NCBI GenBank assembly: GCA_002742845.1
Contig: DLUH01000001.1
Location: forward strand, 499,291 to 563,290
Source: Sulfurovum sp. UBA12169
Lineage (GTDB): Bacteria > Campylobacterota > Campylobacteria > Campylobacterales > Sulfurovaceae
Length of the DNA stretch: 64,000 nt
Direction: 5' to 3'
In this document: positions 50,582-57,078 of the stretch, in pieces
How positions within the stretch are numbered: position 1 is the first letter of the stretch
Layout: each line of letters opens with the position of its first letter
Made by a program: the position numbers and the translations under genes
The notes under the pieces: generated by a model
Told to the model about the DNA's origin: nothing
Seen by the model: the letters and a program-made list of their open reading frames with translations, nothing else
Database searches by the model: none

Positions 50582-50648
50582 TAAAGCCTCAAGCTTCTCT
50601 CGTCATTGTCCCGAATTAAATTCACAAGGGGATGAGAAAAAGGCTTTA
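50582..50648. terminator. Long imperfect hairpin between convergent genes
   Basis: TAAAGCCT (50582-50589) pairs with AGGCTTTA (50641-50648). Inside, a TTCTC stretch with TCAT and TCCC can pair with GGGATGAGAAA. The outer arm covers the last codons of the sensor kinase. It probably acts as a two-way terminator although a clean T run is missing. Confidence 0.4.
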
Positions 50649-51887
50649 ATCTTCCGGCACGGTAATGATAAACCGATTTTCATTTTTTTCATAGGTATAT
50701 GTCAGCTTCAATTTTAATACTTCCATAATCGTATAAACAATATACAATCCCAACCCCAATCCATGTCCTTTCTCGTGAAAAGGCTGCTGATAGTCTTCAA
50801 TAGTGTGGGTAAATTGTTCTCCGCTGTTGGCAAAAAGAATGCTTTTTTCTTTTATTGTGATAGAAACCCGATGATCAGGCGAGTATTTGATGGCATTGTC
50901 CATAAGATTCTTGAATGCCAGTGAGAGAAGCTCAAAATCGCTCAAAAAAACAAGCGGTTCTTCTTCTGCAATATGCACTTGTTTTTGCACCCCCTCTTCA
51001 TCGATAAACATCAGTTCCATTGCCTGCTCTACAATATCCCTTGCATTGTACTTTGATATTTTAAGCATATATTTTGCTGAAAGCATCTGTTCAATTTTTG
51101 AAAATTCTTCTATGAGCAGTTCTAACCGTTCAAATACGGCCTCATAGCTCTCTTTTTGCGAAACGTCCTCTAAAAATACATTGAGCAGTTTTCCTTTTCC
51201 AATGGGCGTTTTAAGCTCATGCATGATCATACGCAAAAAAAGCTGTCTGGACTGGATAAGGGATTCGAGCTTTTTAAGTGCACTATCAAAAGCATTGGAA
51301 ACCTCTGCTATCTCATCTTTGGCCTCACTTTTAAACGATATTTTAAGATCTCCTTGAGCAACCTTGTGGATATTCTCCTGTAAAATTTTTAATGGCTCGA
51401 GACTCCGTGTCAACCATAAATAAAGGCTTAACAGAAAAACCAAACTGACCAAATACCAAAAAAATATTTGCCATGGAAAAGAATTTTCCTGCTGATCTTC
51501 CAAAAGCAACTCAAAATGCGGATGCTCTAGCCAAAGATACATTTTTTGTTTCAGCTTCAATATTTCAAATCTGCTATGCAATATCCTTTTTTTCTGCATC
51601 AAGTAGGTATGCTCGCGAATAGATTTAACGGCTTGGGTATCATCTATCAGTTTAAAGCCGCTCTCTTTTAAATAAAGATTGAAGCTGGGATCGTCAAAAT
51701 CAAGAGGATCTCCATTTTGTGCGCTTTGCCTAAAATACTTATGAAGAAAAAGAGACGTCTGTATGTATCGTTTCTCTATTTTTTGGAAATGCTGTGCTTT
51801 TTGTATATACAAATAAGAGGCAAAAAAAGCGCTGACAAAAACAAAAGAAACCAAAAAAATAATACGTATCTTGCTGTAAATGGTCAT
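50646..51887 (-). CDS. Sensor histidine kinase (ArsS-like)
   Basis: Inner-membrane kinase of 413 residues. TM1 spans about 8-27, a periplasmic domain of about 110 residues follows, TM2 spans about 139-160, then a HAMP domain at about 161-215. The phospho-acceptor is His223 in IMHELKTPIGKGKL, a form common in Campylobacterota ArsS-type kinases. The N box NLMDNAIKYSPD and the G2 loop KGHGLGLGLYIV are in the catalytic domain. It overlaps its regulator by 4 bases, giving a spy-regulator-kinase operon. The signal is unknown; envelope stress, copper or pH are family-based guesses. Confidence 0.9.
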   Translation of the reverse strand: MTIYSKIRIIFLVSFVFVSAFFASYLYIQKAQHFQKIEKRYIQTSLFLHKYFRQSAQNGDPLDFDDPSFNLYLKESGFKLIDDTQAVKSIREHTYLMQKKRILHSRFEILKLKQKMYLWLEHPHFELLLEDQQENSFPWQIFFWYLVSLVFLLSLYLWLTRSLEPLKILQENIHKVAQGDLKISFKSEAKDEIAEVSNAFDSALKKLESLIQSRQLFLRMIMHELKTPIGKGKLLNVFLEDVSQKESYEAVFERLELLIEEFSKIEQMLSAKYMLKISKYNARDIVEQAMELMFIDEEGVQKQVHIAEEEPLVFLSDFELLSLAFKNLMDNAIKYSPDHRVSITIKEKSILFANSGEQFTHTIEDYQQPFHEKGHGLGLGLYIVYTIMEVLKLKLTYTYEKNENRFIITVPED

Positions 51888-52534
51888 GATAGCAATTTAT
51901 ACCCTACACCGCGTACGGTTTTAATATTTACCTCATCTGAGAGTTTATTGCGCAGACGATTGATAATCACCGCCAAAGAGCCGTCGCTTCCAAACTGAAA
52001 TACATCAGAATCATAAAGTATCTGCTCTTTAGACACAGTATTGCCGCGATGCTGTATAAGCAGCTTAAGCACCACATACTCCGCAGGAGTAAGATCAAGT
52101 TCTTCGCGGTTAAACAATATCTGCTCTCTTGCTTCATCCAATGTTAAACTAAAACGAGATTCTTCTTCGTGGATTTTTTTGTAGCGTCTTAACAGCGAGA
52201 TAATCCGGGCATACATCTCTTGGGGGTCATAAGGTTTGGGCAGATAATCATCTGCTCCCAATTGCAACCCTGTCACTTTGTCGCTCACATCAGACCTGGC
52301 CGAAGAGATGATGATGGGAATATCATATTTTTTAACCACCTCCTTGCATACTTCAAGGCCATCCATCCCGGGCAATGTCAAGTCAAGGATAAGCAAATCA
52401 TATTTTTGCACACCGGCACTCAGGCCAAGGTAGGGATCTTCGTAATTGGTGACTTTTATATTGTATCGCTCTAAAAAATCGCTTAGAAGCGACGCATACT
52501 GCGCGTCATCTTCTATCATCAAAATATTTATCAT
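51884..52534 (-). CDS. OmpR/PhoB-family response regulator
   Basis: Receiver domain at 1-115 with Asp9/Asp10, phospho-acceptor Asp51 in ILDLTLPG and Lys in LPKPYD near 101. The winged-helix domain (about 125-216) ends with VRGVGYKL, typical of OmpR-type regulators. The ATG is at 52534. It lies 13 bases after the Spy-like gene and overlaps the kinase gene by 4 bases. Regulation of the Spy-like gene by this pair is likely by analogy with CpxR-CpxP. Confidence 0.92.
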   Translation of the reverse strand: MINILMIEDDAQYASLLSDFLERYNIKVTNYEDPYLGLSAGVQKYDLLILDLTLPGMDGLEVCKEVVKKYDIPIIISSARSDVSDKVTGLQLGADDYLPKPYDPQEMYARIISLLRRYKKIHEEESRFSLTLDEAREQILFNREELDLTPAEYVVLKLLIQHRGNTVSKEQILYDSDVFQFGSDGSLAVIINRLRNKLSDEVNIKTVRGVGYKLLS

Positions 52535-52547
52535 GGAGTATTATAGC

Positions 52548-52973
52548 TTATTTGTTTTGCTCTTTTAAAAGCGCCACAAACTTTACTCTCTGTTCAGGTG
52601 TCAAAATTTGCATCGTTTTTTCAAACCTTTGAGCATGCATATCGGCTCTCATCTGTATTCTTTCCATCTGTGCATTGATAAACCCCTGTTTATCAAATCC
52701 ATTTACACTCACAAATTGTCCTTGAGTGCGTTTGCCTTTCATCTGCGCATGCATCGCCTGTCTGCTTTGTCTCATCTCCTGACGGTTTGCCTGCAAGGCT
52801 GTTTTTTGCTCATTGCTTAAATTTAATTGTTCAAATATATTTTGCATATCGGCTCTTTGTTGCTGCATCTGTTTGCATTGCTTTTGCTTGTTTGCATAGG
52901 GGCCTGCATGAGCGGCGGTTAGACCTGCTATTGCAAACACAGTGGCTATCGCTACGATTTTTAACTTTTTCAT
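52548..52973 (-). CDS. Spy/CpxP-like periplasmic protein
   Basis: A 141-residue exported protein with a signal peptide at 1-23 (AGLTAAHA), start at ATG 52973 with AAGGAAATAAA upstream. The mature protein is all-helical and very rich in Gln, Met, Arg and Lys (KQKQCKQMQQQRADMQ, MHAQMKGKRTQ). Two LTxxQ-like motifs, LSNEQKTAL and LTPEQRVKF, identify the Spy/CpxP family, which act as periplasmic chaperones or sensor inhibitors. The Met-rich composition could also bind copper. It is first in the operon with the regulator and kinase. Confidence 0.85.
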   Translation of the reverse strand: MKKLKIVAIATVFAIAGLTAAHAGPYANKQKQCKQMQQQRADMQNIFEQLNLSNEQKTALQANRQEMRQSRQAMHAQMKGKRTQGQFVSVNGFDKQGFINAQMERIQMRADMHAQRFEKTMQILTPEQRVKFVALLKEQNK

Positions 52974-53083
52974 TTTATTTCCTTTTTCATAATGTGTCTC
53001 TTTCGACACCGCAAGTATGAACCATGAAATTAAACGAAACTTTACCGTTTTTTTAACGAAGCTTAATACAAATTGTTATTTTG

Positions 53084-53932
53084 CTATTTTCTGTATCTGC
53101 TCATGAACGGTTCGCTCTGCCTAAAAACGATCAAATGATGTTTTTTGATATCAGATACACTCATTACCGGACCGTCAACGCACAGCCTTATGTCCCCCAT
53201 ATAGCAGTGCCCGCACTTGCCGATACCGCATCTCATATTTCTCTCAAGTGTAAAAAATATATTTTTTTCATCAACCAAAAATAGTTTCAATTTTTCAAGA
53301 ACAGAAGAAAACATGGGGGGTGGGCCGCAGACAAAAAAGGAAGAATTTTCATCTATTTTTTTAAGTTTTTCTATCATGTCGGTAGATCTTCCGATATACC
53401 CTTTCCATTTTATATCAGCTTCTGCAGCAGCGAGATACAGAGCTATTTCTTTTTCATTTTGCCAACTCTCCAAATCATCCAAAAAGAGAAACTTGGAAGC
53501 TTTGTTTGCGCTGTAGATGATGTTTATCTTGGGTCTGTCGTCGTATGCCAGCAACTCCTGTATCAAAAACCGCAAGGGTGCTATCCCGATGCCGCCTGCA
53601 ATGATCGTAATATTTGATGAGTTGACAGCCTTTTGCACAGAAAAACCTTTGCCGTAACCGCCTCTTATACCAATGATATCACCCGCATGCATTGAATGAA
53701 GCTTTGATGTCAGCCTGCCCACAAGGTTTATGGCGATCTCAAAACTGCCGTCCTCTTTAATGCATGAACAGGGAGTAAAAGCCGCTTCGCCTTCCGGAAA
53801 CACAGACACCATAAGAAATTGCCCCGGAGTGAAAAATATGGGCTCTTTTGGAAGAAGTGTAAATATTTTTACATATTTGCCGGGATGTTCTACGTTTCTT
53901 ATCACTGCGGGTATCGGTCTCTGGGTGTTCAT
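53084..53932 (-). CDS. FAD/NAD(P)-binding, [2Fe-2S] electron-transfer subunit (hydrogenase gamma-like)
   Basis: A 282-residue oxidoreductase of the ferredoxin-NADP reductase fold, like the gamma subunit of sulfhydrogenases and anaerobic sulfite reductase subunit B. The FAD domain covers about 1-100 (FTPGQFLMVSV), the NAD(P) domain 105-225 with IAGGIGIAPL at 111-120 and CGPPPM at 202-207, and a C-terminal [2Fe-2S] motif has Cys235, Cys240, Cys243 and Cys251. The ATG at 53932 overlaps the stop of the Fe-S subunit by 4 bases. It is the NAD(P)-facing end of the formate dehydrogenase encoded upstream (inference from the operon). Confidence 0.85.
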   Translation of the reverse strand: MNTQRPIPAVIRNVEHPGKYVKIFTLLPKEPIFFTPGQFLMVSVFPEGEAAFTPCSCIKEDGSFEIAINLVGRLTSKLHSMHAGDIIGIRGGYGKGFSVQKAVNSSNITIIAGGIGIAPLRFLIQELLAYDDRPKINIIYSANKASKFLFLDDLESWQNEKEIALYLAAAEADIKWKGYIGRSTDMIEKLKKIDENSSFFVCGPPPMFSSVLEKLKLFLVDEKNIFFTLERNMRCGIGKCGHCYMGDIRLCVDGPVMSVSDIKKHHLIVFRQSEPFMSRYRK

Positions 53933-54897
53933 ATGTGATCCTTTGATTGCGCCAGCATCAAAATACTTTTCATTCCTATATTGCTCGGACAAGTCATGTC
54001 GCACCTTCCGCATCCTATGCAGCTTCGATCATTCATGACAAGCTTGCAGGAGAGCCTTCTGCTCCAGGCATGGGCAAAGGTGGGCTCAGGGTCATATCCT
54101 TTGGCCATCTTCGTAAAACTTGAAAAGAGGCAGGAATCCCAGAGCCTAAGTCTTTCTCCTTTTATTTCATCGCCATGATCGGCTATATCATAGCAGGTGC
54201 AGGTAGGACACAAGAATGTACACCCGTCACAAAGCTGACAGCGCTTGGTTATCTCACCGTATAACTCTGTATTTTTTTCAAAATCATTTATAGTATGTGC
54301 GTTTCCAAGATCCAAAATGACGGTTTTTAGCTCTTTTGGTTCATACGATATCTCTTCGAGATGTTTTGGCAGTTCAAACATGGGATTTTTTGCCTGCACA
54401 ATATAACCGGTTTCTTCTTTTATAAGCTGAAGTTCATAATCTTCCTTTTCTATAGGATCAACCCCAAAGGTTGAGCAAAAGCAGTGGGGTCCAATCAAAT
54501 GGCACCCTAGGGTGACAAGCGTAAGATTTTCTCTAAACTTTTTATAGTTTGCATCCGCCATGTCTTGTTCGAACCACACATCCAGAAGCCTGATTGCTTT
54601 TATGTCGCAGTTTCTTAAAAAAATAATTCTTTTTTTGGACTTTTCTTCAAAAGTTTCTATAGCAGCCTCATTGCCGGCCAAATTCCATCTGATAAGACTT
54701 TTATAGTTTTCATAGATAAAATCTTTGGGGGTATTGATCGGGGTGCCCGCAAAGTCCAGGCAAACCGCGTCTGAAGGCTCCACAATAGAGTAGAATATAT
54801 CGCCGTTCGGCTCTTTTTTGGGCGCGATTACCTCATGGGATTGGCAAAGTGATTTTATCCATTCTGCAATGGAGTCGCCATCTGTTTTGTAATTCAC
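53929..54897 (-). CDS. Two-[4Fe-4S] electron-transfer subunit (hydrogenase beta-like)
   Basis: A 322-residue cytosolic iron-sulfur protein resembling the beta subunit of sulfhydrogenases and anaerobic sulfite reductase subunit A. Cluster cysteines are 220, 223, 226 and 230 (CQLCDGCTFLC), with further Cys233 and Cys235, and 293, 296, 299 and 303 (CIGCGRCDMTC). The N-terminal 200 residues match the globular domain of that family (GCHLIGPHCFC near 131-141). The start is GTG at 54897, sharing GTGA with the fdhA stop. It should pass electrons between the molybdenum subunit and the flavin subunit. Confidence 0.85.
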   Translation of the reverse strand: MNYKTDGDSIAEWIKSLCQSHEVIAPKKEPNGDIFYSIVEPSDAVCLDFAGTPINTPKDFIYENYKSLIRWNLAGNEAAIETFEEKSKKRIIFLRNCDIKAIRLLDVWFEQDMADANYKKFRENLTLVTLGCHLIGPHCFCSTFGVDPIEKEDYELQLIKEETGYIVQAKNPMFELPKHLEEISYEPKELKTVILDLGNAHTINDFEKNTELYGEITKRCQLCDGCTFLCPTCTCYDIADHGDEIKGERLRLWDSCLFSSFTKMAKGYDPEPTFAHAWSRRLSCKLVMNDRSCIGCGRCDMTCPSNIGMKSILMLAQSKDHI

Positions 54898-56951
54898 GTT
54901 TCGCTCCTTTTGATAGCTGCTGCACAGACTTTTACTTCGCTGACTCCGCTTTTTTCATCCATTGCATCATTGGTAAGAAGATTGGTGCGGCTCTTGTAAA
55001 AATTGATAGGCATCCAAAGAAGGCCGGGAGCAGTTTCATCAGTCACTTTTGCCCTTACGCTGATCTCCCCTCTTCTTGTTGAGACGATCACCTCCTGATG
55101 CTCTTCAATGCCAAGCCGCCTTGCATCTTCAGGATTTATCATGACAAAGTTTTCAGAAAATTCCCTTGCGAGCCTTGTCGTCCTGCCGCTCATGGAACTG
55201 CAATTATAGTGAAAAAGTATCCGTCCGGTGGAAAGGTAAAACGGGAACTCGGCATCAGGAGTTTCCCTCGGCTCCAAAAATTCAGGAACATAAAACTCCC
55301 CCCTCCCTCTTGCGATGCCTTCACGGTGCAATATGGGTGTGCCCCCGGAGTCTTCTTTTGAGCAGGGCCATTGAAGACTCCCTTTGTCTTCAAGTCTCTT
55401 GTAGCTTATACCTTCATATTGGGGAGTGAGACTTTTCATCTCTTCAAACACCTCTTCAAAACTTTTATACTTCATAGGATAACCCATCTTCGAAGAGAGG
55501 AGACTTGTGATCTCAAGGTCGCTTTTTGATTCCCCCAAAGGTTCGATCACTTTGTTTATCCTCTGGACCCTTCTTTCGGTGTTTGTAAAGGTCCCCTCTT
55601 TCTCGGCAAATGAACAGGCGGGAAAAACCACGTCTGCCATCTGCGCAGTAGGCGTTAAAAACAGATCGCTTACAATCAGAAAATCAAGGTTTTCAAGGGC
55701 TTTTCGTGTTTTATGCGCATTGGCTTCGGTAGTCAGAAGATCTTCACCTATGATCCACATCGCTTTCATGGTACCGTTTAGTGCACCTTCGATCATTTGC
55801 GGCGTCATAAGACCCTGCCGAATGGGAAAAGGCGCACGGCACACCTCTTCGTATTTTTTGATCGTTTCCCTATCGCTTTTGCCTCCGCACAGAGGGTTGA
55901 TGAATTTATATCCGGGAAGCATAAACGGAGCCACACCCATATCGCAGCCGCCCTGCACGTTGTTTTGACCCCGCAAAGGGTTTATGCCCGATCCTGGTTT
56001 TCCTATATTACCCGTTAAAAGCGTGAGGTTTGCCAAGGCCCTGACATTTGCCGTTCCCGTGTAGTGTTCGGTGATACCAAGGGTATAGATGATAGAGGAG
56101 GGTTTTTGTGTTGCATACTTTCTTGCCGCCACCCTAATCTTCTCTTCGTCTATGCCTGTTATAAATTGTGCTTCTGCCAAAGAAAGATCTTTGAGAGACC
56201 TCCTGAACTCTTCATACTTTTCAGTATTGTTTTTTATAAACTCCTGATCGGTAAGATTTTCATCTATAATGACCTTTGCCATCGCGTTTATAAGCGCTAT
56301 GTCTGATCCGGACTTTAGCTGCAAGTGCATAGCGGCAAAATCGCACAGTCTTGTGCGTCTTGGATCCGCCACAATCAGTTCGGTTGCGTTGTCTACAGCA
56401 TTGATGATATGTCCGGCTATGATTGGGTGCGCTTCAAAAGGATTGCCTCCTATCAAAAATATCGTTTTCGCATTTTCGATATCTTTTATCGGATTGGTCA
56501 TCCCTCCGCTTCCAAGCGAAGCTATCAGCCCCGTAACAGTCGGGGCATGACAAATACGTGCACAATGATCGATATTGTTCGTTCCGATCGTTGTGCGGGC
56601 AAACTTCTGGGCAAGATAGAGTTCCTCGTTTGTACATCTTGCAGAACCTATGATACTAATCGCATCAGGGGACTGCTTAGTTTTGATTTCAAGCAGTTTT
56701 TGGGCGGAAAATTCCAAGGCTTCTTCCCACTCGCACTCTGTAAGTTCTCCGTTTTTCCTAATAAGAGGTTTTTTCAAGCGATCCGGATGGGTAATGAACT
56801 CGGGGATATTCCACCCTTTTACACACAGTTTCGCACTATTGACATCATTATGACAAGAAGGATGCACACCAACCACTTTGCCGCTTTTGGAAGTCAAATA
56901 GATATTGCATCCGGTACCGCAGTAGGGACATATCGTAGGAACTCTTTTCAT
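54894..56951 (-). CDS. fdhA: Molybdopterin formate dehydrogenase catalytic subunit (Cys type)
   Basis: A 685-residue molybdenum or tungsten enzyme of the FdhF/FdhA group. The N-terminal [4Fe-4S] ligands are Cys8, Cys11, Cys15 and Cys43. CARICHAPTV at 130-139 supplies the metal-ligating Cys134 (Sec in E. coli FdhF) and His135. The MGD-binding C-terminal domain contains TGRILFHYNCSSMSGR and VMINPEDARRLGI. No Tat signal is present, so it should be cytosolic. I start at ATG 56951; an upstream in-frame extension to 57116 lacks a ribosome site and does not resemble the family. It is first of three overlapping genes. Confidence 0.9.
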   Translation of the reverse strand: MKRVPTICPYCGTGCNIYLTSKSGKVVGVHPSCHNDVNSAKLCVKGWNIPEFITHPDRLKKPLIRKNGELTECEWEEALEFSAQKLLEIKTKQSPDAISIIGSARCTNEELYLAQKFARTTIGTNNIDHCARICHAPTVTGLIASLGSGGMTNPIKDIENAKTIFLIGGNPFEAHPIIAGHIINAVDNATELIVADPRRTRLCDFAAMHLQLKSGSDIALINAMAKVIIDENLTDQEFIKNNTEKYEEFRRSLKDLSLAEAQFITGIDEEKIRVAARKYATQKPSSIIYTLGITEHYTGTANVRALANLTLLTGNIGKPGSGINPLRGQNNVQGGCDMGVAPFMLPGYKFINPLCGGKSDRETIKKYEEVCRAPFPIRQGLMTPQMIEGALNGTMKAMWIIGEDLLTTEANAHKTRKALENLDFLIVSDLFLTPTAQMADVVFPACSFAEKEGTFTNTERRVQRINKVIEPLGESKSDLEITSLLSSKMGYPMKYKSFEEVFEEMKSLTPQYEGISYKRLEDKGSLQWPCSKEDSGGTPILHREGIARGRGEFYVPEFLEPRETPDAEFPFYLSTGRILFHYNCSSMSGRTTRLAREFSENFVMINPEDARRLGIEEHQEVIVSTRRGEISVRAKVTDETAPGLLWMPINFYKSRTNLLTNDAMDEKSGVSEVKVCAAAIKRSET

Positions 56952-57078
56952 TTTTGTTACTGCTCTTTGGTTTTTTTTATCATACCAAAAAATATTTATT
57001 TTTAAAGCAGTTTTGTTTTTTGCGTCAAAAAGAAATACTAAAACAGTTTTATTGACCGGATACTTTTTGCCGATCCCG

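Follow-up and report, generated by a model that had tools for sequence, protein, structure and literature searches.

The window, a 64,000-nucleotide stretch of DNA from Sulfurovum sp. UBA12169, holds three genes that follow one another on the minus strand: fdhA, for a formate dehydrogenase (FDH) alpha subunit (54894-56951; 685 aa, ATG start), beta, for a sulfhydrogenase-beta/AsrA-like iron-sulfur subunit (53929-54897; 322 aa, GTG start), and gamma, for a sulfhydrogenase-gamma/AsrB-like FAD-[2Fe-2S]-NAD(P) subunit (53084-53932; 282 aa, ATG start). The fdhA and beta genes overlap by 4 bp, GTGA (54894-54897, minus strand), as do beta and gamma, with ATGA (53929-53932, minus strand), which suggests translational coupling across both junctions. 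Three genes overlapping by 4 bases had been described in an earlier, sequence-only reading of this DNA, and the open reading frame listing and the translations bear out its coordinates to the base. A candidate fdhA promoter with an extended -10 element, TGGTATGAT (56979-57006, minus strand), is a consensus match and carries no weight for function; its extended -10 is kept in 4/4 genomes that carry the trio, with one base differing in one of them (L009). Downstream of the trio, genes for a Spy/CpxP-like protein, an OmpR-type regulator and a kinase (50646-53009, minus strand) are found in all carriers, beyond a conserved 75-bp spacer. The spacer contains a mostly conserved direct repeat, TTCGTTAA / TTTCGTTTAA, a candidate that could serve as a regulator site. 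A single operon made up of the trio and the Spy, response regulator and histidine kinase genes was considered and rejected: a 57-62% identical histidine kinase is present in five genomes of the genus that have no trio, and the conserved spacer lies between the two groups of genes, so that we do not read their linkage as functional.

Identity of the three subunits

Judged by its sequence, FdhA is a genuine, short, cytosolic FDH alpha subunit, with predicted activity. Its score against the TIGR01591 Fdh-alpha model (801 bits, cut-off 666) lies above the curated equivalog threshold. The catalytic motif NNIDHCARICHAPTV (CARICHAPTV) is of the Cys type, with a Cys-His pair and no TGA codon, the Arg motif GINPLRGQNNVQGGCDMG (PLRGQNNVQG) is the FDH-type RGxNNVQG, and both agree with E. 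coli FdhH, HDCR and F420-FDH. Inspection of the N-terminus revealed no Tat signal. Together, the model score, the motifs and the missing signal uphold the earlier claim of a short, Cys-type, non-exported FdhA. The protein begins at its sole [4Fe-4S] motif, followed by the bis-MGD domain, and a domain search found no Fds/Nuo-type N-terminal extension. In this it differs from FdsABG, the NAD-FDH of R. capsulatus and C. necator, which is soluble and NAD-linked with a Mo/W bis-MGD alpha subunit, as proposed for the trio, but whose FdsA has about 250 extra N-terminal residues and works with a NuoE/F-type diaphorase, whereas the trio FdhA starts at the catalytic domain. The closest solved chains in a PDB search are the alpha subunits of F420-dependent FDH (FdhAB; 9t1s_L) and of HDCR (FdhF; 7qv7); their partners are an FrhB-type F420 subunit and a hydrogenase, respectively, in contrast to the beta/gamma pair of the trio. 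In the FdhA tree the four Sulfurovum proteins form a fully supported group of their own on a long stem, and the Sec-type FdhF of other Campylobacterota join HDCR FdhF, apart from this group.

FdhA is set apart from the assimilatory nitrate reductases (NasA/NasC) by score and motif: it scores 502 bits against the NasC model, below the cut-off of 1100, and has CARICH instead of LCMASAV at the active site. Nor is it the Tat-exported membrane FDH of Campylobacterota, given the lack of a Tat signal, its length of 685 aa vs about 940 aa, and the absence of FdhB/FdhC. Full-length matches to FdhA in other Campylobacterota are 33-36% identical. These were considered as solo FDHs and set aside, since the one inspected (L041) carries the NasA motif LCMASAV; on this motif, they are probably nitrate reductases.

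Beta has a Fer4_22 domain and matches the AsrA, ShyB and HydB models (E 1e-36 to 1e-25), in each case under the equivalog cut-off; its sole PDB match is the beta chain of sulfhydrogenase I (SHI) of Pyrococcus (9nez_B, E 1.6e-25, 27% identity). Gamma has NAD_binding_1, FAD_binding_6 and DHODB_Fe-S_bind ([2Fe-2S]) domains, and its top PDB match is SHI gamma (9nez_C, E 3e-41, 36% identity). In alignments, 14 Cys of beta are invariant relative to SHI, AsrA, Flox and Photobacterium beta, and the four [2Fe-2S] Cys of gamma are invariant across the SHI, Asr, Flox and Photobacterium copies. The matches to SHI and the conserved cluster cysteines agree with the hydrogenase beta/gamma (AsrA/B) type assigned before. 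An Arg of SHI gamma that possibly contacts the 2'-phosphate of NADP is replaced by Asn-Lys in the Sulfurovum gamma; thus, NAD and NADP both stay eligible. AlphaFold models of beta and gamma, built on few homologues, have a mean pLDDT of 28 and 40, respectively, too low to be of use.

The trio resembles the NADPH-dependent group 3b sulfhydrogenases I and II (HydBG/ShyBC) in pairing an Fe-S beta with a FAD/[2Fe-2S]/NAD(P) gamma that have the same ligand Cys, but there the catalytic unit consists of [NiFe] large and small subunits, and here it is FdhA. A group 3b [NiFe] sulfhydrogenase was rejected in spite of the homology of beta and gamma, because the large and small subunits are not adjacent and the HydB/HydG equivalog cut-offs are not reached. 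Likewise, AsrA and AsrB of AsrABC are homologous to the trio beta and gamma, a shared diaphorase pair, but their catalytic subunit, AsrC, is absent beside the trio, and the models fall short of their cut-offs (AsrA on beta, 126 bits vs 323; AsrB on gamma, 151 vs 289), so that an anaerobic sulfite reductase was also rejected. In both trees beta and gamma form a deep lineage of their own, apart from the AsrAB, group 3b hydrogenase and Flox modules, with the Asr clades separated at full support. An orphan AsrAB or hydrogenase pair does not fit either, since the pair is coupled to fdhA in every carrier.

Distribution and descent of the trio

Beta is present in 4/78 genomes of the genus Sulfurovum. 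A sample of 397 genomes from the phylum yielded it twice, both times within this genus, and none of the other Campylobacterota genera sampled has it; the carriers in public databases comprise Sulfurovum MAGs and one Campylobacterota MAG. A scan of viral contigs returned no relative. All four carriers have the same trio, in the same order and with the same flanks. Relative to the three other genomes, the trio proteins are 79-90% identical (FdhA, 82-89%) with dN/dS of 0.08-0.15, about 0.1 in every subunit, which indicates purifying selection and argues that the trio is not a chance arrangement. The synonymous divergence of the trio resembles that of the flanking genes. The shared site, the low dN/dS and this flank-like divergence point to a trio that is ancestral to the carriers and was then retained. 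The GC content of the trio (0.42-0.46) is near that of its surroundings (0.40) and gives no compositional sign of recent arrival. At this site the closest genome that lacks the trio (G067) carries two genes unrelated to it.

Outside this group, Photobacterium sp. DA100 encodes all three subunit types, ordered as in Sulfurovum, at 42/25/29% identity (FdhA/beta/gamma) to the Sulfurovum trio; a gene for a formate/nitrite-family (FNT) channel precedes them in the row. Thus, the three genes co-occur both in the three other Sulfurovum-group genomes and in this distant row. A common origin of the Sulfurovum and Photobacterium sets is neither shown nor rejected by the trees (FdhA 68/69, beta 69/85, gamma p-AU 0.12). 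As a side observation, records of 2.1-2.6 Mb labelled as plasmids (Photobacterium DA100, L014; Acetoanaerobium noterae, L015; Fusobacterium vincentii, L115) resemble chromosomes or second chromosomes.

Genome context of FdhA

The source genome has seven PF00384 matches, which, named from motifs and length, are FdhA, NapA, a polysulfide/thiosulfate-reductase-like protein, a solo FDH-like protein, a short molybdoprotein, a Ttr/Soe-like protein and NuoG; a Tat-exported FDH is not among them. The solo FDH-like alpha (L004/L048; L048:7096-9225, minus strand; C5, about 150-152 kb) is cytosolic and Cys-type, with the motifs CARVCHSPSL and RGQNNVQG; it has no partner genes, and thioredoxin and purF genes lie a few genes away, recalling the solo fdhA near purine genes of Thermococci (PMC10025317). 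Another locus, on C1, codes for a molybdopterin oxidoreductase of 610 aa (L052:5993-7825, minus strand), about 2 kb from 2-oxoacid:ferredoxin oxidoreductase-like genes. No match to FdhD, to an FNT formate channel or to formyl-THF synthetase was found in the source genome; of the two formate users, formyl-THF synthetase and PurT, the search covered the former. FdhD is present in 5/78 genomes of the genus and in 0/4 of the trio carriers. In another Campylobacterota genome, a Tat-type, TGA-containing fdhAB is followed by ModE-, YedF- and SelD-like genes (L118:462-6291) with no fdhC or fdhD in between, and that genome has no FdhD match.

Proposed reaction and alternatives

With a probability of roughly 0.65, the three subunits form one cytosolic FdhA-beta-gamma enzyme that oxidises formate to CO2 and passes the electrons to NAD(P). 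FdhA would oxidise formate at a bis-MGD site whose Mo or W has a Cys ligand, and the electrons would leave through its single [4Fe-4S] cluster to the clusters of beta, and from there reach the [2Fe-2S] and FAD of gamma and, finally, NAD(P)+. FdhA would sit on this diaphorase pair where sulfhydrogenase has its [NiFe] core and sulfite reductase has AsrC. For the host, a sulfur-oxidising rTCA autotroph that must otherwise spend energy on reverse electron transport to obtain NAD(P)H, the enzyme would make NAD(P)H from formic acid taken up from outside or from formate released in the cell by deformylase, GTP cyclohydrolase and similar reactions. This reading draws on the FDH score and motifs, the short alpha subunit, the SHI-type beta and gamma with their redox Cys, the gene overlaps, the conservation in four carriers at dN/dS of about 0.1, and the Photobacterium row. 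It also draws on the pair serving other catalytic subunits elsewhere, since at other loci it stands beside group 3b hydrogenase, beside AsrC and in Hdr-Flox, and on the precedent of the reversible Thermococcus Fdh3/Nfd, in which a short cytosolic FdhA likewise works with a separate NAD(P) flavoprotein (PMC8965080). In Fdh3, however, the NAD(P) subunit, modelled on NfnI and accompanied by two small Fe-S proteins (PMC8965080), is not of the beta/gamma type. The reading is weakened by the lack of FdhD in the four carriers, the lack of an FNT channel and the SHI gamma Arg that is not conserved. Of the soluble, NAD(P)-linked FDH proposed from the sequence, the cytosolic FdhA and the diaphorase-type beta and gamma stand, and with Asn-Lys in place of the SHI gamma Arg the cofactor may be either NAD or NADP.

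The potential of the CO2/formate couple lies about 100 mV below that of NAD(P). NAD(P)H would thus be too weak a donor unless formate were very low, and net reduction of CO2 would require just that; moreover, no Hdr or bifurcating subunit adjoins the trio. An enzyme that mostly reduces CO2 at the expense of NAD(P)H, to supply formate for biosynthesis, is therefore unlikely, although FDHs are reversible, Sulfurovum fixes CO2 and Fdh3 reduces CO2 with NADPH and ferredoxin in vitro (PMC8965080). The absence of FdhD, formate channel and formyl-THF synthetase also counts against a role from CO2 to formyl-THF, and the CO2-reductase option raised in the sequence-only reading is weakened accordingly. 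Oxidation of formate is preferred on the redox potentials and on the missing formyl-THF synthetase. That ferredoxin, or polysulfide/S0, is the acceptor in place of NAD(P) would be in keeping with a sulfur-dependent host, with a subunit type shared with sulfhydrogenase, which reduces sulfur in vitro, and with the use of ferredoxin by Fdh3 as well (PMC8965080); however, the FAD and NAD-binding domains of gamma are intact and the row has no additional ferredoxin or rhodanese gene, and we give this acceptor little chance.

E. coli and R. capsulatus depend on FdhD, the FDH sulfurtransferase, to make their FDHs active (PMC10609526, PMC12140954), and the R. capsulatus enzyme has no activity at all when produced in the absence of FdsC and FdhD (PMC12140954). 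With FdhD missing in 4/4 trio genomes, FdhA might lack the sulfido ligand and have no FDH activity in vivo, the complex being idle or serving another role. We consider this improbable in view of the strong purifying selection and the perfect FDH motifs. Moreover, some FDH-expressing organisms have no fdhD (PMC10609526), so that the missing FdhD is an anomaly and does not exclude the protein from the FDH class; the fdhAB of L118 is a similar case, and the R. capsulatus enzyme made without chaperones can be chemically sulfurated and restored by sulfide and a reductant (PMC12140954). It is conceivable, as a tentative proposal that we hold to be less probable than not by some way, that FdhA matures without FdhD, taking its sulfido ligand from the sulfide of a sulfide-rich cytoplasm or from another sulfurtransferase, and feeds NAD(P) through the sulfhydrogenase-type diaphorase.

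A search of an open library of papers found none on an FDH joined to sulfhydrogenase subunits. The cytosolic NAD(P)-linked reading of the trio would add another wiring of the common formate-splitting subunit to NAD(P), and would extend the use of the sulfhydrogenase/Asr beta-gamma pair, as an exchangeable diaphorase, from hydrogenase, sulfite reductase and Hdr-Flox to FDH. A short, Sec-free, Cys-type NAD(P)-FDH of three genes would suit cofactor regeneration or CO2 conversion. The most interesting point of the system is the possible maturation without FdhD. The absence of this protein offers a way to test FDH maturation in a sulfidic organism.
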